Source of the DNA: Dissulfuribacter thermophilus
Lineage (GTDB): Bacteria; Desulfobacterota; Dissulfuribacteria; Dissulfuribacterales; Dissulfuribacteraceae
DNA length: 64,000 nucleotides
Direction of reading: 5' to 3'
Assembly (NCBI RefSeq): GCF_001687335.1
Contig: NZ_MAGO01000003.1
Coordinates: 1-64,000, forward strand
This document shows positions 2,206 through 57,776 of this stretch, piece by piece. The notes under the pieces were generated by a model, which was given only the letters and a program-made list of their open reading frames with translations, was not told where the DNA came from and did no database searches. Both the position numbers and the translations under genes were made by a program. The stretch's first letter is position 1. The number at the start of each line of letters is the position of its first letter.

Positions 2206-3777
2206 CTATTTGGGCCCTTCCCCATAACCTCCTCCACCTGGTGTCCTTATCTCAATACAATCTCCTTCATTCACTTCCACATGACACTTTCCAGGTAGTA
2301 TCTTCCATTTTATCTGTCCATTTTTTTTGATCCGGTTTATGCCACACCTTCCTGGCTCGCCTCCAAATAGACCATATGGAGGAATTGTCCGCCGTTCAGA
2401 AAGTATGCTGACATGTGCGGGCTTTAAGAACTTAATCCGTCTTATGATCCCATCGCCTCCCCGATATCTTCCTCTTCCCCCAGAATCAGCTCTTAAAGCA
2501 TACTCCTCAACTAAAAATGGATATTGCTGCTCTAGGGCTTCAATAGGAGTATTCAGTGTATTGGTCATATGGGTCTGGATCCCTGACAATCCATCAAGGG
2601 TAGGCCTAGCCCCCATACCTCCACCAATAGTCTCGTAATACGCATATTCATTACCCCATTGATCTATACCACCAATTGCGAGGTTATTCATGGTCCCTGC
2701 ACTTGCAGCTGGAATCTTATTTGGGCATGCCTTTGCCAATGCCCCAAACATTACATCCACAATACGCTGTGAGGTCTCAACATTTCCAGCTGCCACTGGG
2801 CTTGGATACTGGGCATCCACAATAGTGCCTGGCCGTGTAATTACTTGAATTGGTCTAAGCGCCCCTGAATTCACTGGATAGCCTTCTCCTATCAGACAAA
2901 ATACGCAATAATAAACACAAGATCTCGTAACGCTTTTTACAGTGTTTAATCCAGTACCAACAGAAGGATTACTCCTTGAAAAATCTGCGATTAGTGCATC
3001 TTCTTTAATTGTCAAATCTACAACTATCTTGATAGCCTGTTTATCTAGGCCATCATCATCTAGAAAGTCTTCAAAAGAATAGGTCCCATTTGGAATTGCA
3101 CCAATTACGGATCTCGTAACTCTTTCTCCGTAATTGAGTAATTCTTCAATGCATGCCTCTAAAAAGTCTGAGCAGTACCTTTGCAGTAGTTCCTTGATTC
3201 GCATATCGCCACGCCTGAGTGCTGCGACTTGGGCCCTGAGATCACCTTCTCGTTCCTTTGGATTTCTAACCTGGGAAAGGAAGGGATAAAGAAAATCCAA
3301 CATGAGCTCATCTTCTTTATATAAATAGGTGGGGCGGATCAATTCGCCCTCTCTATGAATTGAATTCTCAAGAGGCATTGACCCTGGAGTTACCCCTCCT
3401 ACATCAGCGTGATGGGCACGAGAGACCAGATAATAGCTCGGAGAGTCTGATTTTCCTATGAATACTCCCTTGATTAAGGTAATGTCTGGTAGATGTGTCC
3501 CCCCTGAATATGGATCATTGGTTATGATCACGTCCCCTGGCCTCAATTTAAAGGCCTTTGTAACCTCTTTTACAGTATCAGGCATGGCTCCGAGATGGAC
3601 AGGTATATGGGCAGCCTGGGCAATTAGATTCCCGTTTGCGTCAAATATCGCGCAAGAAAAATCTCTCCTCTCCTTTATATTTGGAGAATAGGCAGCCCGC
3701 TCAAGGACTATGCCCATCTCTTCTGCTATTGAACAAAATGACTTGTTAATTATTTCAATATCTATTGGAGTAGGCAT
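2206..3777 (-). CDS. Hydantoinase B / oxoprolinase family protein (orphan HyuB)
   Basis: The 523-residue protein matches the hydantoinase B (HyuB) family throughout: the N-terminal block with NDPYSGGTHLPDITL, the HHADVGG motif, the PVAAGNVETSQRIVDV segment and the glycine-rich C-terminus TPGGGGYGEG. In known systems (N-methylhydantoinase, acetone/acetophenone carboxylases, 5-oxoprolinase) HyuB works with an ATP-binding HyuA partner. No hyuA is adjacent: fusA is divergent upstream and serA follows. The substrate cannot be predicted. The partner may be encoded elsewhere. Family assignment is firm, function open. Confidence 0.85.
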   Translation of the reverse strand: MPTPIDIEIINKSFCSIAEEMGIVLERAAYSPNIKERRDFSCAIFDANGNLIAQAAHIPVHLGAMPDTVKEVTKAFKLRPGDVIITNDPYSGGTHLPDITLIKGVFIGKSDSPSYYLVSRAHHADVGGVTPGSMPLENSIHREGELIRPTYLYKEDELMLDFLYPFLSQVRNPKEREGDLRAQVAALRRGDMRIKELLQRYCSDFLEACIEELLNYGERVTRSVIGAIPNGTYSFEDFLDDDGLDKQAIKIVVDLTIKEDALIADFSRSNPSVGTGLNTVKSVTRSCVYYCVFCLIGEGYPVNSGALRPIQVITRPGTIVDAQYPSPVAAGNVETSQRIVDVMFGALAKACPNKIPAASAGTMNNLAIGGIDQWGNEYAYYETIGGGMGARPTLDGLSGIQTHMTNTLNTPIEALEQQYPFLVEEYALRADSGGRGRYRGGDGIIRRIKFLKPAHVSILSERRTIPPYGLFGGEPGRCGINRIKKNGQIKWKILPGKCHVEVNEGDCIEIRTPGGGGYGEGPK

Positions 3778-3804
3778 GAGCTTCTCTTACCACAACTTTT
3801 CCCC

Positions 3805-3833
3805 TTGACAACCCATTTTCTAATAGTTAAAAA
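3805..3833 (+). promoter_or_regulatory. Sigma70-type promoter candidate for fusA
   Basis: TTGACA at 3805-3810, a 17-nt spacer, then TAAAAA at 3828-3833. It would start transcription near 3840 and leave a leader of about 140 nt before the fusA start codon. Confidence 0.5.
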
Positions 3834-3982
3834 AGTTGCGTTACCATTCCGGGAGCATATATATAGGCCACAATCTCGAAAATTTTCCCCCAGTTGTTAC
3901 AATAGGAGAGGCAAAAGATTAGGGCTTAGCCCGGAAGGGTATATTATTTTGAAAGGATACTTTAAATTGAGAGGTTTTGACT

Positions 3983-8124: not shown

Positions 8125-8301
8125 CAAATTATGCAGCTCGAAAGCCTTGCAGAATATGCAAGGCTGAGGGTATGCAAAGGACTTAGGTACTTCAAGTCCC
8201 CGACAAAGCAAGGCCATTCAGTAAAGTTGCGAGCCCATTGGGGCTTCAAATCCCTGAAATTTAATCGCCGTATCAAGCAGCACCTTTTGGGTAAAGGGAC
8301 A
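8125..8301 (+). repeat. Partial, decayed copy of the ~255-bp dispersed element (subfamily 2)
   Basis: The left part (AATTATGCAGCTCGAAAGCC, ACTTAGGTACTTCAAG, GGGCTTCAAATCCCTGA) matches the full copy at 25871-26125 read in reverse complement. Homology fades after the CACCTTTTGGGTAAAGG segment and the right terminal repeat is missing. It lies between the convergent ABC ATPase and bamD genes. Confidence 0.7.
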
Positions 8302-8309
8302 AGACCGAT

Positions 8310-14022: not shown

Positions 14023-14289
14023 TTCCACCTAAATCCTGCAATTGTCGAGTTTGCCCAAGATGCAAGGCGGACCGGAAGCAGACGCACTCAGGCACTTCAC
14101 GCCCCTGACAACGCAGAAACCCGGGTAAAATCGCCAATCCCGCAGGGCAGCCAAATGGGGCAAAAACTTGAAGAACTTGCATTTCACTAAAAAAGTGAAT
14201 CTAAGTAAATACTTTTCATAAAGTAACACCTTAATATAATATTGGAAATGCATTTTTGCCCCCTTTTGCCGTGCAGGATTTAGGTTCCA
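14023..14289 (+). mobile_element. Dispersed element copy A with 5-bp target duplication (element 14028-14284)
   Basis: The 257-bp non-coding element is bounded by perfect 13-bp inverted repeats CCTAAATCCTGCA (14028-14040) and its complement (14272-14284). It is flanked by the direct repeat TTCCA at 14023-14027 and 14285-14289, which indicates insertion. The two internal arms are partly decayed here. It separates gyrA and gpsA, ending 21 nt before the gpsA start, so gpsA must be transcribed through or from it. Confidence 0.88.
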
Positions 14290-21009: not shown

Positions 21010-21789
21010 TTACTTCTTTGTCTTCCTTCCTTTTTGTCTATGGGCCTTTTGTTCCTCCTCTGTAAGGAACCTGTAGGTCACTGCAGTGCACTTAGTGCTA
21101 ATTATCCACACTGGGCCTCTATCTGGGGCGGTCTCTGTTTGCATATCAAGGGCCTGCCCCTTTAAGCCACTGGCTTGATTGAGAGGAGGGCCTGTTTTTG
21201 CTCCAGGGCTTTTTTCTGCGGTAGCTGTCTTACTCCATATTTCTCTTTCCTCTCTTGCACCTCCCATTGAAATATCACGGATATGAACTATCCTTGCCAT
21301 TTTAGTAATCTTGTCAAAAAACCTCATAGTATTGTGAAATGGCCCTTGAATACTAAGACTTACAGGGATCTCTGCATAAAACTCCCTTTTGATCTCTGGC
21401 CCTGGCCTAAAGGATAGGAAATCAAGGTGCTCTTCATTTCCAAGAGAAGATATCTCCGTGAGAATTGCTGGTATATCTTTTGATTCAGGTAAGAGCTTCA
21501 TGGCCTTTTTTAACACTTTGTCCATCTCCTTCAATTCAGCCTCTAATTCCGGGATCATTTTTGCCTTTTTCTGTAATATCAGAACCTCTTGTCTTAACAT
21601 GGGGATTTTTCCAGAAATACCGTCAAGCTCTTGAAGCCTAGGGGCAAGGAACAAAAACCAAAATGCAATACATGGAATAGAAAAGGCGATGATACATATT
21701 AGGAGTTTTTGCCAAAAAGGCATAAGGTATACATACTGCTCTAGACCAACTGGGATCTTAAAAGTGGCCTTTTTTATTGAAATTTTCAT
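21010..21789 (-). CDS. pilO: Type IV pilus inner-membrane protein PilO
   Basis: PilO is a bitopic protein that dimerises with PilN. The ATG at 21789 is chosen because AGGAAGAG lies just upstream; a frame starting at 21834 lacks such a site. One transmembrane helix (KLLICIIAFSIPCIAFWFLF) is followed by a coiled coil (LRQEVLILQKKAKMIPELEA) and the ferredoxin-like domain. That domain has LDFLSFRPGPEIKREFYAEI and SLSIQGPFHNTMRFFDKITK. The C-terminal tail is basic. A dispersed element (21882-22138) separates it from pilN. Confidence 0.9.
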   Translation of the reverse strand: MKISIKKATFKIPVGLEQYVYLMPFWQKLLICIIAFSIPCIAFWFLFLAPRLQELDGISGKIPMLRQEVLILQKKAKMIPELEAELKEMDKVLKKAMKLLPESKDIPAILTEISSLGNEEHLDFLSFRPGPEIKREFYAEIPVSLSIQGPFHNTMRFFDKITKMARIVHIRDISMGGAREEREIWSKTATAEKSPGAKTGPPLNQASGLKGQALDMQTETAPDRGPVWIISTKCTAVTYRFLTEEEQKAHRQKGRKTKK

Positions 21790-21881
21790 CTGAACTCTTC
21801 CTTTATCAAGGTAAGATGCACCGTCAATAATCATCGGGACAAGTCAGATTACCCATCTCTTTGCCCCCAGATCTTTAAGCA

Positions 21882-22138
21882 CCTAAATCCTGCAATTGAC
21901 GAGTTTGCCCTTTGATATCGAGGAGCGAGGGGCGAAGACGTACTTAGGTACTTCGAGCCCCGAGCAACAAAGAAGATTGGGCAAAATCGCCAATCCCGAA
22001 GGGCGGCAAAAGGGAGCAAAAAATATGGAATATGGATTCACCCCAAAAGTGAATTTGAGGAAAAACCAAATATTGGCTAATCCCTTATATAATCGTTTAC
22101 AATCCATTTTTGCCCCCTTTTGCCGTGCAGGATTTTGG
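21882..22138 (+). mobile_element. Dispersed element copy B inside the pil operon
   Basis: This 257-bp element has left terminus CCTAAATCCTGCA (21882-21894) and right terminus TGCAGGATTTTGG (22126-22138), with one mismatch. The internal arms and the TTCACCCC...GTGAAT hairpin are retained. Flanking 5-mers (AAGCA and GACGA) do not match, so no target duplication is left. It lies between pilN and pilO, 28 nt after the pilN stop, in an operon that is usually contiguous. Confidence 0.85.
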
Positions 22139-22165: not shown

Positions 22166-22717
22166 TTACGATGCACCCTCCGCTAACTCAATTATTAGGC
22201 CGAATTCCATAAGTTCATTGCCCTTAATATTCTTTTTCCTTGTGTTACTTAAGGTAACTGAAGCGACCATTGAAGATCCCTGTAGCCTACGCATGAATAG
22301 AGCCACTGTATGATTGTCCAACGCAACACCTGAAACAGTTATTTTAGATCCAGACAGATTCACTCGTTTGAGCCATACCCTATCAATAGGTACGGCAGTT
22401 ACCACCTCATCAAGTGCCCGTACTGCAAAATTGCGCCCATGTTGTAGTTTTTCAATGGAAGAAAATTTATTCTCAATTTCTTTACGTTTCTTATTAACCA
22501 GGGCTATCTTTTTATTGACGTAGGAAAGTTGTTTTTTCTGTTGCTCGAGTCGGGCTATCTCTTCCCTTTTAGTCGTAAGTTTCCCTTGAACAGTAATCCC
22601 TACGGCAAGAAAAATTGTTAATAATAGCAATAAGGTAAGAAAGAATACGGAAATTTGCTTGCGTACTGCTTCTTTTCTCTTCCACTGTCTAACTGGTAAC
22701 AAATTTACCTTAATCAC
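22166..22717 (-). CDS. pilN: Type IV pilus inner-membrane protein PilN
   Basis: This 183-residue bitopic protein begins with the canonical MIKVNLLPVR, the segment that binds PilM. It continues with one transmembrane helix (SVFFLTLLLLLTIFLAVGIT) and a coiled coil (EEIARLEQQKKQLSYVNKKI). A PilN periplasmic domain containing VPIDRVWLKRVNLSGSKITVSG ends the protein. Together with PilM, PilO and PilP it forms the alignment complex. It starts 46 nt after pilM. Confidence 0.92.
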   Translation of the reverse strand: MIKVNLLPVRQWKRKEAVRKQISVFFLTLLLLLTIFLAVGITVQGKLTTKREEIARLEQQKKQLSYVNKKIALVNKKRKEIENKFSSIEKLQHGRNFAVRALDEVVTAVPIDRVWLKRVNLSGSKITVSGVALDNHTVALFMRRLQGSSMVASVTLSNTRKKNIKGNELMEFGLIIELAEGAS

Positions 22718-25870: not shown

Positions 25871-26125
25871 CCCGGATTATGCACTTCAAATGCCTGAAGA
25901 AAGTAATTTCTATGAATTATTGCATAGTTAGCATGCATCTTTTCCCGTTGTGCCTTCACCCAAAAGGTGAAGTTCAATCCGTAATAAATCCTCAGGCATT
26001 TGAAGCCGCAAGGGGCTCGCAATCTTACCGAGGTCTCTTTGTTGTCGGGCACTTGAAGTACCAAAGTACGTCTGCGTGCCCTCCGCCTCGCATCTTCGGC
26101 AAACTTGCGAGCTGCATAATCCGGG
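25871..26125 (-). mobile_element. Dispersed element copy E, subfamily 2, between lepA and lepB
   Basis: This 255-bp non-coding element has perfect 13-bp inverted repeats CCCGGATTATGCA (25871-25883) and its complement (26113-26125). It aligns with the other subfamily only when reverse-complemented. Internal arms pair perfectly or nearly so: 25884-25897 with 25992-26005 (14/14), and 26015-26032 with 26094-26112. A CTTCACC/GGTGAAG hairpin caps one arm (25954-25972). Flanks TTTAT and TTGAT match at 4 of 5 bases. Confidence 0.85.
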
Positions 26126-28246: not shown

Positions 28247-28774
28247 ATGGAAGAACGTATAGAGATAAAGATTGAAAAAGGCCATTGGGTAGTAATGGAT
28301 TATGTAGTCAAATTAAAAACTGGTAAAGTAATCGATTCATCTGAAAAGGCTGGAGGACCTGTGGCATTCGTATGTGGAGAGGGCGATTTTCCAGAACCAG
28401 TAGAAAATGGAATTATTGGATTAGCTCCAGGCGATACCAGTTTAATACCTGTCCCCCCTCAATACACATACGGTCTCTATGACCCTAAAAAGGTCTGTTT
28501 AGTAGCCACTGAAAGGATTACAGAACCAGTAGAAATAGGAAAAGTAGTTAAGGCTCCTGATGAATTCGGAATTAAGCGCCCAGCTGTTGTCCGTGCAGTG
28601 TGGGATGGTGCCATAATGCTCGACTTTAACCATCCTCTAGCAGGACAAGTCCTCCATTTTGAGGTCTATATTAAGGAAGTCAGATCTTCTCAACCTGAGA
28701 TTAAACAGATACCAGCCCAAGAAGTACCAGAAAATGGAGCACATACAACTACTGAGTTAGGTGGAATGTCGTGA
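28247..28774 (+). CDS. FKBP-type peptidyl-prolyl isomerase, SlyD-like
   Basis: This 175-residue isomerase/chaperone has the FKBP half-domain (YVVKLKTGKVIDSSEKAGGP, PGDTSLIPVPPQYTYGLYDP) interrupted by an insert-in-flap chaperone domain. The fold is closed by LDFNHPLAGQVLHFEVYIKEV, the classic SlyD motif. There is no histidine-rich metal tail, unlike E. coli SlyD, so it is closer to the short SlyD/SlpA forms. The stop overlaps the mqnE start (TGATG), suggesting coupling with the menaquinone operon. Confidence 0.9.
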   Translation: MEERIEIKIEKGHWVVMDYVVKLKTGKVIDSSEKAGGPVAFVCGEGDFPEPVENGIIGLAPGDTSLIPVPPQYTYGLYDPKKVCLVATERITEPVEIGKVVKAPDEFGIKRPAVVRAVWDGAIMLDFNHPLAGQVLHFEVYIKEVRSSQPEIKQIPAQEVPENGAHTTTELGGMS

Positions 28775-29865
28775 TGGAGGCTCTCATTGAAAAAGAAGGC
28801 CTTTCTCAAATTTACGAAAAGGTCATTCAAGGCAAACGTCTTAGCAGAGAAGATGGAATTAGACTCTTCAAAACACAGAATCTTCCTGTAATTGCTTTCC
28901 TTGCCAATATTATAAGAGAAAGGCTAAATGGAGACAAAACCTTTTATATCTATAATCAGCACATAAACTATTCGAATGTTTGTAAAAATCTCTGTAAATT
29001 TTGTGCCTTTGGTAAAGAAAAAAGTTCTCCTCATGCCTTTGAAATGACCCTGGATGACATTGAAGATGAAGTAAAAAAGAGATTAAACGAACCAATTAGA
29101 GAGATTCACATTGTAGGAGGATGTCATCCAGACCTTCCATACGAATTTTATCTGGAAATGTTGAAAAGGATAAAAAAAATCAGGCCAGAGTGTCACATCC
29201 AGGCCTTTACATGTGTCGAAATCGCGCATATTGCACAAATCGCAGATAAATCCATAGAGGACACTCTGAAAGATTTAGTGGATTCAGGCCTAGGCTCCAT
29301 TCCAGGTGGTGGTGCTGAAGTCTTTAGCCCTAGGATTAGAGAACGGCTTTGCCCAGAAAAATTGAGTGGTCAAGGGTGGCTGGAGGTGGCAAAGGCAGCT
29401 CATAGAATGGGCATTAAATCTAATGCAACCATGCTTTATGGTCACATAGAATCCATTGAAGAACGTCTGGATCACCTAATAGCATTGAGGGAAGCTCAGG
29501 ATGAAACTGGAGGTTTTTTATGCTTCATTCCTCTTGCATTTCATCCCAAAAATACTGAGTTAGAATCCATATCGCCTACAGGTGGAGTAGATGATCTAAA
29601 AACCATTGCCATTAGTCGTCTAATGCTCGACAACTTCCCTCACATTAAGGCCTACTGGATAATGCTAGGGACCAAGGTAGCCCAGATAGCTCTTTCCTTT
29701 GGTGCTGATGACCTGGATGGGACAGTACTTGAAGAGAAGATCACCCACATGGCAGGGGCAGAGACGGAAAAGGCCTTGTCCAGAGATGAAATTGAGAGGA
29801 TTATAAAAGCGGCAGGTAGGATTCCTATTGAAAGAGACACGTTGTACAATGAGATTCCAACTTAA
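28774..29865 (+). CDS. mqnE: Aminofutalosine synthase (radical SAM)
   Basis: MqnE joins an enolpyruvyl-benzoate intermediate to S-adenosylmethionine in the futalosine route to menaquinone. The radical-SAM cluster motif is CKNLCKFC (about Cys70/74/77). Downstream blocks HIVGGCHPDLPYEFY, IPGGGAEVFSPRIRERLCPEK and the C-terminal LGTKVAQIALSFGADDLDGT are MqnE/MqnC-type. At about 363 residues the length is normal. The ATG at 28774 overlaps the previous stop; a GTG one codon earlier is possible. It is the first of four consecutive mqn genes. Confidence 0.94.
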   Translation: MEALIEKEGLSQIYEKVIQGKRLSREDGIRLFKTQNLPVIAFLANIIRERLNGDKTFYIYNQHINYSNVCKNLCKFCAFGKEKSSPHAFEMTLDDIEDEVKKRLNEPIREIHIVGGCHPDLPYEFYLEMLKRIKKIRPECHIQAFTCVEIAHIAQIADKSIEDTLKDLVDSGLGSIPGGGAEVFSPRIRERLCPEKLSGQGWLEVAKAAHRMGIKSNATMLYGHIESIEERLDHLIALREAQDETGGFLCFIPLAFHPKNTELESISPTGGVDDLKTIAISRLMLDNFPHIKAYWIMLGTKVAQIALSFGADDLDGTVLEEKITHMAGAETEKALSRDEIERIIKAAGRIPIERDTLYNEIPT

Positions 29866-29926
29866 AAAATTTGTTGTTTCAAATAAATACCGTATAGTAT
29901 CAGGGCATTAAGTTAAACGGGTTTTC

Positions 29927-30994
29927 ATGAAACATATATACAAAAAGCTTATCCAGGGAAAAAGAATCACAGAACAAGAGGCATTGACTCTACTTAATTC
30001 AGCGCCATTGACTGATCTGGGTGCCATTTCATATGATATCAGATACAGGATCAATCCAGAGCCAATAGTAACCTATGTCATTGATAGAAACATAAACTAT
30101 ACAAATATATGTCTGTCTGGCTGTAAATTTTGTGCGTATTTTCGGGCCCCAGGAGACCCAGAAGGTTACATTCTGAGCGATGAAGAACTCAAAAAAAAGA
30201 TTGAAGAGACCCTAGCCTTAGGGGGGACACAGATCTTACTTCAAGGGGGGCTACATCCCGAACTATCAATTGAATATTATGAGAGGCTGTTTAGCTTTAT
30301 AAAGGAAAACTTTTCTATTCACATCCATGCGCTCAGTCCTCCTGAGGTAATCCACATCTCTAAACTTTCAGGCCTTTCCATTGAAGACGTATTAAGGCGT
30401 CTTAAGGCAAGTGGCCTTGATTCCATACCTGGTGGTGGCGCTGAAATCCTCGTAGATAGCGTAAGGGCTATTATATCGCCTAATAAGGCCAGTTCTCATG
30501 AATGGCTTTTAGTCATGGAAAAGGCCCATGAGCTCGGTATGCGTACCACAGCGACTATGATGTTTGGCCATGTAGAGACCAAGGCTCAACGTATTGAGCA
30601 CCTGTCTAAACTCCGGGCCCTCCAGGACAGGACTCAGGGTTTTACAGCCTTTATTCCATGGCCTTTCCAACCCCGAAATACAGCGCTTTCTGTTCCGCCC
30701 TCAACTGGGGATGACTATCTAAGGACCCTTGCTGTTTCCAGAATATTTCTTGATAACTTTCAAAATATCCAGGCCTCATGGGTTACCCAAGGCCCTAAGG
30801 TTGCTCAAATCGCATTGTTTTTTGGTGCAAACGACTTTGGCAGCACCATGATAGAAGAAAATGTGGTGGCAGCAACCGGCGTATCTCATAGACTATCTGA
30901 AAGAGAAATAAGAAGACTCATAAATGAAGCTGGATTTACCCCCAAACAGAGGCTCATGGACTATACCTTAGTGAAAAAGGACCTTTTAGAATGA
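29927..30994 (+). CDS. mqnC: Cyclic dehypoxanthinyl futalosine synthase (radical SAM)
   Basis: MqnC performs the radical cyclisation of dehypoxanthine futalosine in menaquinone synthesis. The cluster motif is CLSGCKFC (Cys62/66/69), with GGTQILLQGGLHPEL, SIPGGGAEILVDSVR and AFIPWPFQPRNTAL. It is paralogous to the preceding MqnE, with the distinguishing GLHP and PFQP blocks of MqnC. At 355 residues it is full length. A 61-nt gap separates it from mqnE. It overlaps the next gene by 4 nt. Confidence 0.94.
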   Translation: MKHIYKKLIQGKRITEQEALTLLNSAPLTDLGAISYDIRYRINPEPIVTYVIDRNINYTNICLSGCKFCAYFRAPGDPEGYILSDEELKKKIEETLALGGTQILLQGGLHPELSIEYYERLFSFIKENFSIHIHALSPPEVIHISKLSGLSIEDVLRRLKASGLDSIPGGGAEILVDSVRAIISPNKASSHEWLLVMEKAHELGMRTTATMMFGHVETKAQRIEHLSKLRALQDRTQGFTAFIPWPFQPRNTALSVPPSTGDDYLRTLAVSRIFLDNFQNIQASWVTQGPKVAQIALFFGANDFGSTMIEENVVAATGVSHRLSEREIRRLINEAGFTPKQRLMDYTLVKKDLLE

Positions 30995-33164: not shown

Positions 33165-33194
33165 GACTCTAACCCTCAATAAATGGCGAAATAA

Positions 33195-33233
33195 ATCCTG
33201 CATGCCGAACCTCAACCATTCGACATGCAGGAT
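33195..33233. terminator. Hairpin between convergent mqnA and gltX
   Basis: ATCCTGCATG (33195-33204) pairs perfectly with 33224-33233 across a 19-nt loop. It sits in the 93-bp gap between convergent genes and may end both transcripts, though no T-tract is present. The TCCTGCA core also occurs in the dispersed-element termini, so it could be a remnant. Confidence 0.4.
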
Positions 33234-33257
33234 AAATAGACCAAAACAAATTAGGGG

Positions 33258-34770: not shown

Positions 34771-35034
34771 AACTACCTAAATCCTGCAATTGGCGAGTTT
34801 GCCCAAGATACGAGGAGCGAGGGGCGAAGACGTACTTAGGTACTTCGAGCCCCGAGCGACAAAGTAGATTGGGCAAAATCGCCAATCCCAAAGGGCGGCA
34901 AAAGGGAGCAAAAACACAAAATATAGATTCACCCAAAAAGTGAATTTCGTGAAAAGCCAGATGTTAGCTAATACTCTATAAAATCGTAAATAATTCATTT
35001 TTGCCCCCTTTTGCCGTGCAGGATTTAGGAACTA
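34771..35034 (+). mobile_element. Dispersed element copy C with 5-bp target duplication (element 34776-35029)
   Basis: This is the best-preserved copy, 254 bp. Terminal repeats 34776-34788 and 35017-35029 are perfect (13 bp). Flanks AACTA at 34771-34775 and 35030-35034 are a perfect 5-bp duplication. Arm 1 pairs 34789-34806 with 34869-34886 (17 of 18). Arm 2 pairs 34897-34914 with 34998-35015 (17 of 18) and is capped by an ATTCAC/GTGAAT hairpin. It lies between glnS and gltX and overlaps the glnS 3' end. Confidence 0.92.
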
Positions 35035-43623: not shown

Positions 43624-43721
43624 TGGCGGAAGCGCATGGGAATCGAACCCACCCACGAGGCTCCTCACCCCGTGCACCGGATTTGAAGTCCGGGAGGGCC
43701 ACCAGCGCCCTTTCCGCTTCC
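43624..43721 (-). tRNA. selC: Selenocysteine tRNA (anticodon TCA)
   Basis: This 98-nt tRNA-like gene on the minus strand has loop CTTCAAA (anticodon TCA reading UGA), a long variable arm and the extended structure of tRNA-Sec. Acceptor arms GGAAGCG and CGCTTCC pair, and GCCA is encoded at the 3' end. It implies that the organism recodes UGA with SelA, SelB and SelD, which are not in this window. A run of eight T follows the CCA. Confidence 0.95.
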
Positions 43722-46208: not shown

Positions 46209-46580
46209 CTAATCATCGTCGTCCCAGTCCTCTGGAAGGTCTTGAGACTTTTGGGTCTGTGGCTTGGGCTCTGTCTTTATTTCTGCCTGTTTTTTCGCAT
46301 TATTAAGGCTTTTTTCACGTTCTTCCTTACTCCACTGTTCTGTCTTTTTCTTCAGCCGATTACTCAATAAAAGCAGGTTTTTTATACCTCCTGCCAATCC
46401 AAATAGAAAAAAGATTATAGTAAACCATGGATGGGTTCTTCCCTCAAAGACGTCCGTATCCAGCCAGTAACCGAACCAGACCCCGGCAAAGGTTGAAAAG
46501 ACCATGGCAGCACCCATGGTGGAAGCATGGGCTAGAATACGAAAGATCTCATTTAGGTATTTCTTAGTCTCAGGTCTCAT
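46209..46580 (-). CDS. atpZ: AtpZ/AtpI-type ATP synthase accessory protein, copy 1
   Basis: This 123-residue protein has two hydrophobic helices (GAAMVFSTFAGVWFGYWLD and PWFTIIFFLFGLAGGI), matching the F0F1-ATPase AtpZ/gene-1 family that assists Fo assembly or magnesium/calcium handling. The polar C-terminal tail of about 45 residues ends in DLPEDWDDDD. It lies downstream of atpE copy 1 beyond a terminator. A second copy at 48904-49164 has lost this tail. Confidence 0.87.
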   Translation of the reverse strand: MRPETKKYLNEIFRILAHASTMGAAMVFSTFAGVWFGYWLDTDVFEGRTHPWFTIIFFLFGLAGGIKNLLLLSNRLKKKTEQWSKEEREKSLNNAKKQAEIKTEPKPQTQKSQDLPEDWDDDD

Positions 46581-46666
46581 AAATCAGCATGAAGGGAACC
46601 CCGGTCCCGATCCTCGAGTGTTTACTACATCTCTGTCGGCTAGGGCCCCTCTCAAAAAAACAAAAA

Positions 46667-46691
46667 AGCGGTGAAAGTTACTTTCACCGCT
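46667..46691 (-). terminator. Intrinsic terminator after atpE copy 1
   Basis: AGCGGTGAAAG (46667-46677) pairs perfectly with 46681-46691 across a 3-nt loop. On the minus strand it is followed by TTTTTTGTTTTTTT. It sits between atpE and atpZ copy 1 and so may limit atpZ expression. Confidence 0.85.
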
Positions 46692-46750
46692 ATACTTCAT
46701 TGGGGTCCCCTCTGGGAATTCTGTCTGACCTGTGTCGTAAATCTCTTCCC

Positions 46751-47852
<1,102 letters not shown>

Positions 47853-48392
47853 AGTTACAGGGCCTCCTTAAAGATTATGTATAGTGGTTCATTGCATTGA
47901 TCAAAAAGGAGCGGCAAGATAACCCCTCTAATATCCTCCCCTTTTTGAAGTACTCCCAATCTATCGAAAACGATTGAATGAATCGCCATTCAGCGCAACA
48001 GTCAAAAAAATTTCTTTTCAAATCAACCTATTGCACTGAATATTGCCTCATTCATACATCAAAATATAGGGAGCTAGCAACAAATACGCTCCCTACTTGA
48101 ACATACGTTATTAGCACAAACCCCATGGGGTGTCAATAGCAAAAGACCACTCAAAAACCCAGCAGTTTGAGTATTAATTCACTCAGTTTTCTGTTTCAAT
48201 TCCAATATAACCATCATCTAGGACATAAACATCGTCAGCCATGAATTTATACCAGAAGGGACCACTCTACCCATGGATAGCCAGACCTTCGGCTGCGGCC
48301 ATTAGTCTAATGGAAGAGGGAAAATCTCTAGCATTTTCCCAGACAATTCGTCATTTTAACCCCAAATAGTGTATCGTGATTAAGATGTCAGC
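47853..48392. other. 540-bp gap between atpI and atpB
   Basis: No gene is seen. The stretch contains a weak hairpin (AGGGAGC 48068-48074 with 48088-48094) that could end the atpI transcript. It presumably also holds the atpB promoter. Such a gap inside an atpI-atpB unit is unusual. Confidence 0.4.
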
Positions 48393-48788
48393 CTAGTTTG
48401 GGTTTTTCTTCCTTACAAGCTTCATCTGGATCACCAGCAGAAAAAAGGTAATTGGAACTACTGAGACACCAACAAATATCCCTACCAAACTGAATTTACC
48501 AGGGAATTTCAGAACAAAGGTACCGATTACTATAATGGCAAGGAGCAGCCTGGTAAACATTCCTATAAAGTATACTATCTGGGAACGCCATTTTACGATG
48601 CGTTTCGTGTCTCTCAAGACGCCGACAGCATTCAAAGCGGCAACCACTCCACCAAGGGCAATTCCCCTTACACCTTCAGGGGTCCACCAGACATTGGCCC
48701 CTGCAAGCAACGCTACCAGGATAAACCAGATTCCGATTAAAAACCGCTTTGCAAGGCCTTCATCGAGCTCGCCTATCCACATCAACAT
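48393..48788 (-). CDS. atpI: ATP synthase subunit I-like protein
   Basis: This 131-residue membrane protein has four hydrophobic segments (FLIGIWFILVALLAGANVWW; GIALGGVVAALNAVGVL; FIGMFTRLLLAIIVIGTFVL; GVSVVPITFFLLVIQM), the AtpI (ATP_synt_I) pattern. It is a non-essential assembly helper for the c-ring. GAGGA precedes the start, and this ribosome-binding region overlaps the decayed tail of atpZ copy 2. Confidence 0.82.
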   Translation of the reverse strand: MLMWIGELDEGLAKRFLIGIWFILVALLAGANVWWTPEGVRGIALGGVVAALNAVGVLRDTKRIVKWRSQIVYFIGMFTRLLLAIIVIGTFVLKFPGKFSLVGIFVGVSVVPITFFLLVIQMKLVRKKNPN

Positions 48789-48796
48789 GGCCCAAT

Positions 48797-48903
48797 CCTC
48801 AACATCCCAGTCCTTTGGAAGATCTCGGAGTCTCCGATGCTCCTACATAGGCTCTTTTCTCTTCTCTCCCAACTCATCTTCATGGTTAAGGCTATTTTCA
48901 TAG
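48797..48903 (-). pseudogene. Decayed 3' tail of atpZ copy 2
   Basis: Beyond the atpZ copy 2 stop the DNA still aligns with the tail coding region of copy 1. Examples are AGATCTTCCAAAGGACTGGG against AGACCTTCCAGAGGACTGGG, and the GCCTTAA-x2-ATG segment. Stops and indels break the frame. It shows that the duplicate once carried the full acidic tail. Confidence 0.7.
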
Positions 48904-49164
48904 CTATTCCCTGCTCCATTGTTCCAGCTTTCTCTTGTTCCGATCATTCAACAAAAACAGGTTCCTTATACCTCCTGCAAGTCCGAATAGGAAGAAGACT
49001 ATAGTAAACCATGGATGGGTCCTCCCATCAAAGACGTCTCTGTCCAGCCAGTAACCGAACCAGACCCCGGCAAAGGTTGAGAATACCATGGCTACGCCCA
49101 TAGTAGATGCGTGGGATAGGCTACGCAGGATTTCGTTGAGGTGTTTCTTGGTCTCAGGTCTCAT
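48904..49164 (-). CDS. AtpZ-type ATP synthase accessory protein, copy 2 (tail-less)
   Basis: This 86-residue protein is about 80% identical over its length to copy 1 and keeps both membrane helices (GVAMVFSTFAGVWFGYWLD; PWFTIVFFLFGLAGGI). It ends at EQWSRE, where copy 1 continues for about 35 residues. Premature termination followed the duplication. It may still be functional because the membrane core is intact. Confidence 0.83.
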   Translation of the reverse strand: MRPETKKHLNEILRSLSHASTMGVAMVFSTFAGVWFGYWLDRDVFDGRTHPWFTIVFFLFGLAGGIRNLFLLNDRNKRKLEQWSRE

Positions 49165-49290
49165 AATTCAACATGATGGGGCCCCAGTCCTTGTCCTGAG
49201 GAGGTGTTTTTACTGCTCAGTGGGCTGGAGCCATTTCCCTGAATCAAAAAATTCGGTAGATCTGCCTACCATTGCCGTAAGTCTCGTCCC

Positions 49291-49653
<363 letters not shown>

Positions 49654-51553: not shown

Positions 51554-51627
51554 CCCAGATTATGCAGCTCGAAAGCCTTGCCGAAGATGCAAGGCGGAGG
51601 ATACACAGACGTACTTAGGTACTTCAA
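51554..51627 (+). repeat. Truncated copy of the dispersed element (subfamily 2, left end only)
   Basis: The left terminus CCCAGATTATGCA (51554-51566) and the next ~60 bp (GCTCGAAAGCCTTGCCGAAG, GACGTACTTAGGTACTTCAA) match copy E in reverse complement. Homology stops at about 51627, 13 nt before the stop of the polyferredoxin gene. Confidence 0.75.
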
Positions 51628-51640
51628 CTGATCAAGCCCC

Positions 51641-52775: not shown

Positions 52776-53028
52776 CCTAAATTATGCAATTGGCGATTTT
52801 GCCCAAGATGTGAGGCGCGAGGAGTGAAGGCATACTTAGGTATTCCGAACCCCGAGCAACAAAGTAGATTGGGTAAAAGCGCCAATCCCGAAGGGCGCCA
52901 AAAGGGGACAAAAAATAGAGATTGGGATTCACCGAAAAAGTGAATTTGGCGATGTGGTTGATATTGGCTGACAAGCTATAAAATCTTGAAAAATCATTTT
53001 TGTCCTCTTTTGCCGTGCAGGATTTAGG
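52776..53028 (+). mobile_element. Dispersed element copy D
   Basis: This 253-bp copy has left terminus CCTAAATTATGCA (two changes from the other copies) at 52776-52788 and intact right terminus at 53016-53028. Internal arms and the TTCACC/GTGAAT hairpin are present. No flanking duplication (GCTAA and GGAAA). It lies between divergent genes and touches the ribosome-binding site of the plus-strand gene. Confidence 0.85.
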
Positions 53029-57283: not shown

Positions 57284-57595
57284 CCCGGGTGTCACCTCCT
57301 AATGATTTCAGGATGGCCACACCCCATACCCACACAGGGCTTAACACTGAGCTCCAGAACGGACCAGGTGGAAATAAAAGTGGCAAATTTTATTTGAAGG
57401 AAAACAATTTAGGTTTGTCTAAATCTTACATCCCACATTGTCTTTTTGAGGTCTGATATATTCAACTACTCCATTTGCCAAAATTCATTTAATGAAAAAC
57501 ACAAAACAAAGTCATATATGGCAACTGGCTAAAATCCTTTTATTTCCAACCCAGTACCGCAATATATATGAACCCAGATGGGGTTATAGCCAAAA

Positions 57596-57776
57596 TACCC
57601 CCGCTTGTGCCGTGTCTACAGGGTTCATTGAACCTGACCTAGTCAGGTGGGCGTCTCATCCGCAAGGCGTCAGACAGGGATGTTTTCCCCGTCATCGGCT
57701 CGCGAAGCGGAGACCCCCTTGTACGGGGTGTTGGCTCAACGAACTTCCTGTTTGATCACGGTCACAGCAGGGGAAG
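57596..57776 (-). ncRNA. ssrS: 6S RNA
   Basis: On the minus strand this ~180-nt sequence folds into a long rod. The closing stem pairs CCCCTGCTGTGACCGTG (57757-57773) with CACGGCACAAGCGGGG (57599 to about 57614). An interior region holds GTTCGTTGAGCC opposite GGTTCAATGAACC, and an apical stem-rich part follows. The 6S RNA binds the sigma70 RNA-polymerase holoenzyme. Its place directly downstream of zapA is the classic ssrS location. Confidence 0.82.

Follow-up and report, generated by a model that had tools for sequence, protein, structure and literature searches.

The element located between pilN and pilO belongs to a family of repeats that, judging by their ends and target sites, are very probably non-autonomous miniature transposons (MITEs) of IS1380 type, a reading to which we assign a probability of roughly 0.92. 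Related copies lie at several other gene junctions within the window, by which we mean the whole 64,000-nucleotide stretch of DNA analysed, and many more are found elsewhere in the same genome and in related genomes.

Copies in the window

The pilN-pilO element (copy B) is a T1 MITE on the plus strand with boundaries exactly at 21882-22138. Its sequence runs CCTAAATCC...GGATTTTGG, and its terminal inverted repeats, given as plus-strand sequence, are CCTAAATCCTGCA on the left (21882-21894) and TGCAGGATTTTGG on the right (22126-22138). The adjacent genes, pilN (22166-22717; PF05137) and pilO (21010-21834; PF04350), are encoded on the minus strand, and the element is therefore antiparallel to transcription. 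The target-site duplication (TSD) of copy B has decayed (AAGCA/GACGA).

Two additional T1 copies on the plus strand are also found between minus-strand genes. Copy A (14028-14284) is located at the gyrA-gpsA junction and has the TSD TTCCA (14023-14027 and 14285-14289), and copy C (34776-35029) is located at the glnS-gltX junction and has the TSD AACTA (34771-34775 and 35030-35034). Copy E is a T2 MITE on the minus strand (25871-26125) between the plus-strand genes lepA and lepB, and has terminal repeats CCCGGATTATGCA and a TSD with one mismatch (TTTAT/TTGAT). Copy G, a T2 left-end fragment on the plus strand (51554-51630; model positions 1-76 of 257), separates a polyferredoxin gene from hemL. 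Checking the flanking genes of these five copies with NCBIfam and Pfam bore out a preliminary description of this DNA, according to which A, B, C, E and the partial copy G lie between co-directional genes and share one orientation, which is antiparallel to transcription in all five cases.

The same description placed the two other copies at divergent or convergent junctions, and this is also correct. A T1 MITE on the plus strand at 52776-53028, in whose flanks no clear TSD is present, lies between divergent genes for a polyferredoxin and a beta-CASP metallo-hydrolase, and a truncated T2 MITE on the plus strand at 8126-8304 (model positions 4-180 of 257) occupies a convergent junction. A short palindrome at 33191-33237, also at a convergent junction, has T1-like ends (AAATCCTGCATG...CATGCAGGAT) and no orientation, and is perhaps a minimal deletion derivative.

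Several features of the window that are distinct from the repeats also were observed. Some segments among the ATP synthase Fo genes at 46209-49638 are present twice: two genes for subunit c (46751-47164 and 49291-49638) lie within DNA that is 96% identical over 300 nucleotides, and a second repeat pair (46323-46601 and 48907-49185) is 81% identical. The minus strand carries genes for a selenocysteine tRNA (43628-43721; RF01852) and for 6S RNA (57594-57776; RF00013). Two neighbouring radical SAM genes at 28771-30994, whose products have CofH/MqnC C-terminal domains, perhaps act in the futalosine pathway for menaquinone.

Structure of the elements

The family comprises two subfamilies, T1 and T2, each of about 257 nucleotides and each represented by a model of 257 positions. 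The ends of T1 elements come in two forms, CCTAAATCCTGCA or CCCAAATTATGCA, and those of T2 elements read CCCRGATTATGCA. Inverted ends and a predicted four-way-junction fold, on either strand, are common to both subfamilies. In the predicted fold, the terminal inverted repeats pair as a stem. A left arm, which encloses a nested hairpin around GACGTACTTAGGTACTTC, is followed by a small hairpin with two or three C-G pairs and then by a right arm, which is long and encloses the nested hairpin TTCACC...GTGAA. Stem sequences differ between T1 and T2 at equivalent places, and the architecture is unchanged. For T1, the predicted energies of the two strands are -114 and -105 kcal/mol, and the fold should thus be very stable either way. 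A TATAAT-like motif recurs in the right-arm loop, about 50 nucleotides from the right end, in most T1 copies.

The elements are abundant, with more than 75 copies or fragments, and at about 257 nucleotides are too short to encode a transposase. The 13-mer CCTAAATCCTGCA has 63 exact occurrences in the 2.5-Mb genome, as compared with two places for a control pattern with up to one mismatch. Some pairs of this 13-mer are merely 60 to 150 bp apart, and look like internally deleted copies. At positions 3017-3834 of locus L043 (G000:C1:53032-53849), a T2 copy lies between two outward-facing stretches that resemble the T1 right end and are 818 bp apart; this arrangement is perhaps what is left of a larger element that had two right ends.

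Evidence for transposition

The 5-bp target duplications, together with the short or overlapping state of the orthologous junctions, establish that the repeats are transposon insertions. Exact pairs of flanking 5-mers are present in 41 of 62 T1 copies and in 15 of 25 T2 copies, whereas random re-pairing of the right flanks predicts 1.4 and 2.2, respectively. For neither subfamily is there a comparable excess of matching flanks at any length other than 5 bp. The targets are A/T-rich, and conform to TTNAA for T1 and to ATNAT for T2.

Orthologous junctions lack the additional DNA. The gap between glnS and gltX is 279 nucleotides here, 39 nucleotides in a genome of the same family (G002), and -1 to 76 nucleotides elsewhere. 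The gap between pilN and pilO is 331 nucleotides here; in 23 relatives, these genes mostly overlap or are separated by fewer than 30 nucleotides, the exceptions being 47, 84 and 171. The elements thus have the features by which MITEs are recognized: terminal inverted repeats, a TSD of fixed length, a short and multicopy sequence without a transposase, and an empty site in a relative.

Relation to IS1380 elements

IS1380 elements such as ISEcp1 start with CC and generate a 5-bp duplication. The repeats described here resemble insertion sequences of the IS1380 family, and MITEs derived from them, in having CC..ATTATGCA ends and in duplicating 5 bp of A/T-rich targets, and ends of the CC..ATTATGCA form adjoin IS1380 transposases recognized by NCBIfam or Pfam within the same order. 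They differ in being about 257 nucleotides long, in having no transposase, and in forming two subfamilies that share a four-way fold with unlike stem sequences.

Nine of the 46 genomes from the order have a match to PF13701, the IS1380 transposase, and the D. thermophilus genome (G000) has none. The transposase genes in the order are mostly degraded, and the T1b/T2 terminal 13-mer CCC[AG][AG]ATTATGCA is found nearby at six loci (L163, L165, L167, L169, L171 and L174), of which L163 scores above the NCBIfam cut-off for IS1380. At L168, a degraded transposase is flanked by the sequences CCCGGATTATGCAGC...GCTGCATAATTTGGG, which are spaced by 1672 bp. This element is pseudogenised: its transposase fragments match below the cut-off, and its flanking 5-mers are unequal (TTATA/ATTAA). 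Some of the transposase loci partly overlap (L167 with L172, and L168 with L173).

The transposase-linked ends have the CCC[AG][AG]ATTATGCA form of T1b and T2, and no transposase-bearing element was found with the exact T1 end CCTAAATCCTGCA. An IS-sized element with exact T1 ends was also sought, and the matches listed for D. thermophilus and twelve relatives include no two exact ends that face each other suitably at a distance of 0.8 to 3 kb.

Because the IS1380 transposases of the order carry the T1b/T2 13-mer, and because this genome has no detectable transposase of that type, its copies are probably stranded IS1380-type MITEs. An IS1380-type transposase would have recognized the ends and moved the elements by DDE transposition, and its later loss from the genome would have left the copies without a partner. 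An autonomous IS1380 partner in the same genome, which is no defining requirement for such descent, was not found.

Stop codons and operon junctions

Many copies between co-directional genes begin 0 to 5 nucleotides past the upstream stop codon. A TAA is present within the T1 terminal repeat (as part of CCTAA), and in the case of copy C, the stop codon of glnS is now the TAA within the terminal repeat of the element. The preferred target, TTNAA, often covers a stop codon (TAA, TGA or TAG), and an insertion at the end of the upstream gene of an operon would cost little. A stop-rich target combined with a built-in TAA would therefore make operon junctions cheap landing sites, and the low cost of such insertions may be the reason that copies closely follow an upstream stop codon or, like copy C, supply it.

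Orientation relative to transcription

Orientation was tallied from at most 40 scored candidates per genome and query, a large but non-exhaustive collection in which related copies are only partly independent of each other. Genes were called by a home-made codon-bias script. Among copies of at least 40 bits in D. thermophilus, T1 elements between co-directional genes are oriented opposite to transcription in 21 cases and with it in 8 (18:8 without the window), and the corresponding numbers for T2 are 10:8 (8:8 without the window). Of the 42 T1 copies that reach 40 bits in this genome, 11 are located where the flanking genes diverge or converge. In relatives, T1 copies of at least 30 bits are divided 21:9, and T2 copies at further loci, identified by a scan of genome contigs, are divided 10:5 after removal of duplicates.

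When own and related genomes are pooled outside the window, 57 copies are oriented opposite to transcription versus 30 with it (66%; 95% CI 55-75%; P = 0.005). The skew is 38:17 for T1 alone (P = 0.0065) and 19:13 for T2 alone (P = 0.38), and the difference between the subfamilies is not significant (P = 0.25, as computed before the 10:5 T2 loci were joined). According to the preliminary description, a genome-wide tally near 50:50 would speak against its claim. The tally is not near an even division for T1 or for the pooled set, although T2 by itself is compatible with 50:50.

The same description argued that random insertion would rarely yield five of five copies in one orientation. A bias does exist outside the window, at approximately 2:1, but the probability of a common orientation for all five under 50:50 is 0.06. 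Nor does unanimity hold as a rule for the family, given the tally elsewhere and given that the five window copies mix two subfamilies. The orientation skew is real and modest, about two to one, and the window is unrepresentative, lying at the lucky end of this weaker skew.

Possible origins of the skew

An RNA structure that acts on polycistronic mRNA through processing, attenuation or stabilisation could cause one orientation to be kept, and ERIC sequences in Yersinia, whose effect is orientation dependent (PMC2229807), provide a precedent. The 57:30 skew is in keeping with such a function, as are the high predicted stability of the fold on either strand and the divergence of the paired arms of T1 and T2 under a constant architecture. 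However, one third of the co-directional copies face the other way, and many copies are located at divergent or convergent junctions. Variation is lower in stems than in the right-arm loop (5.0% versus 8.4%), but a palindromic transposon also predicts conservation of stems. Changes in T2 stems, when read on the mRNA strand, keep pairing in 23 cases and break it in 11, which is suggestive only; in contrast, stem transitions on the mRNA strand of co-directional T1 copies are evenly divided, with 49 that keep a wobble pair and 46 that break pairing.

Searches for known RNA signals also do not favour this explanation. At the Rfam gathering threshold, the window matches only tRNA, tRNA-Sec and 6S RNA, with no match for the elements. 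A consensus scan of copy C revealed no Rho-independent terminator (a GC-rich hairpin followed by a T-run) and no sigma-70 promoter. Moreover, an RNA element of fixed orientation is expected to show a consistent orientation, and the observed division is 66:34, not near 100:0. We therefore consider an RNA-level function improbable, and the transcribed-RNA role proposed in the preliminary description is unsupported for these transposon insertions.

Alternatively, the sense orientation might be selected against after insertion, if the right-arm loop of T1 contained an outward promoter. Most T1 copies have a TATAAT motif, or a version with one mismatch, at a near-constant position, and the motif would point outward in the sense orientation, but a -35 hexamer at normal spacing is not seen by eye, and copy C lacks a promoter that passes the consensus scan. 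Copies without a clear TSD are also not more skewed: the opposite and sense orientations number 27:8 among T1 copies in which a TSD can be recognised and 14:9 among the others (P = 0.24 for a difference between the two groups). Because copies with a clear TSD are at least as skewed, the skew is not visibly growing with decay, and slow purging is not favoured. An outward promoter is thus a doubtful explanation.

The skew could also be set at insertion, as a by-product of target asymmetry, if target sites tended to supply a stop codon when read along the coding strand. Upstream gaps of 0 to 5 nucleotides are frequent, as this predicts. Among stop-bearing TSDs of co-directional T1 copies in the opposite orientation, 12 have the stop on the coding strand only and 6 on the other strand only, and the corresponding numbers for sense copies are 4 and 0. 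However, TTNAA and ATNAT are nearly palindromic, the stop-strand bias is merely 7:4 at divergent junctions and 22:16 overall, and the pyrimidine content of flanks at sites that are not co-directional is about 0.51 to 0.53. Target asymmetry is unlikely to be the cause, and does not clearly explain the skew.

Replication direction, in which the leading or lagging strand determines orientation and thereby mimics a transcriptional bias, has very little to recommend it. Orientations look clustered on some contigs, but with the leading strand assigned from GC skew at fourfold sites, T1 copies are divided 20 lagging to 18 leading, and the gene-relative skew occurs in both classes (11:3 and 8:4). A replichore bias was rejected on the basis of the 20:18 division.

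Transcription or translation in progress might instead orient copies as they insert into operons, for example if insertion were coupled to whichever strand is exposed near stop codons. This specific mechanism seems distinctly unlikely, but if it were true, the skew would show that an IS1380-type transposase chooses its targets in a transcription-coupled manner, and would not be a sign of later selection. Overall, we favour the inference that the skew reflects either weak selection on insertions or an effect of transcription at the time of insertion, and not a conserved RNA device.

Comparison with known repeats

Small mobile sequences of bacteria, including ERIC, RUP, Correia/NEMIS and CIR, have been reviewed (PMC2229807). 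ERIC elements are 127 bp, and their orientation reportedly matters for the effect on the stability of upstream mRNA (PMC2229807). The elements described here are like ERIC/IRU sequences of enterobacteria in being intergenic, palindromic and MITE-like, and in often occurring between co-directional genes, but their orientation skew is partial and any RNA effect would be hypothetical. RUP elements of Streptococcus pneumoniae are 107 bp and have ends that match those of IS630-Spn1 (PMC2229807). They are similarly short, multicopy and non-autonomous, and are tied to an insertion sequence by their ends; however, RUP uses TA targets, whereas here the duplications are 5 bp, the link is to IS1380, and the partner is absent from the genome. 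CIR elements of Caulobacter are intergenic and have two long arms with a linker (PMC2229807), an arrangement that the present elements share. CIR elements are about 110 bp, are based on GANTC sites, and have no established mobility, whereas the target duplications demonstrate mobility here.

No named MITE of this group was found in the open literature. Matches to the shared core were confined to metagenome-assembled genomes that bear the label Deltaproteobacteria, Thermodesulfobacteriota or Thermodesulfobacteriaceae, in a search from which records of the D. thermophilus genome were possibly left out.

The well-supported identity as a mobile element replaces the earlier guess of an RNA regulator, and connects IS1380 ends with a repeat that is abundant between genes in one deltaproteobacterial order. 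The two-to-one skew, which extends over dozens of insertions, offers a testable contrast between selection against one orientation and insertion that is guided by transcription.
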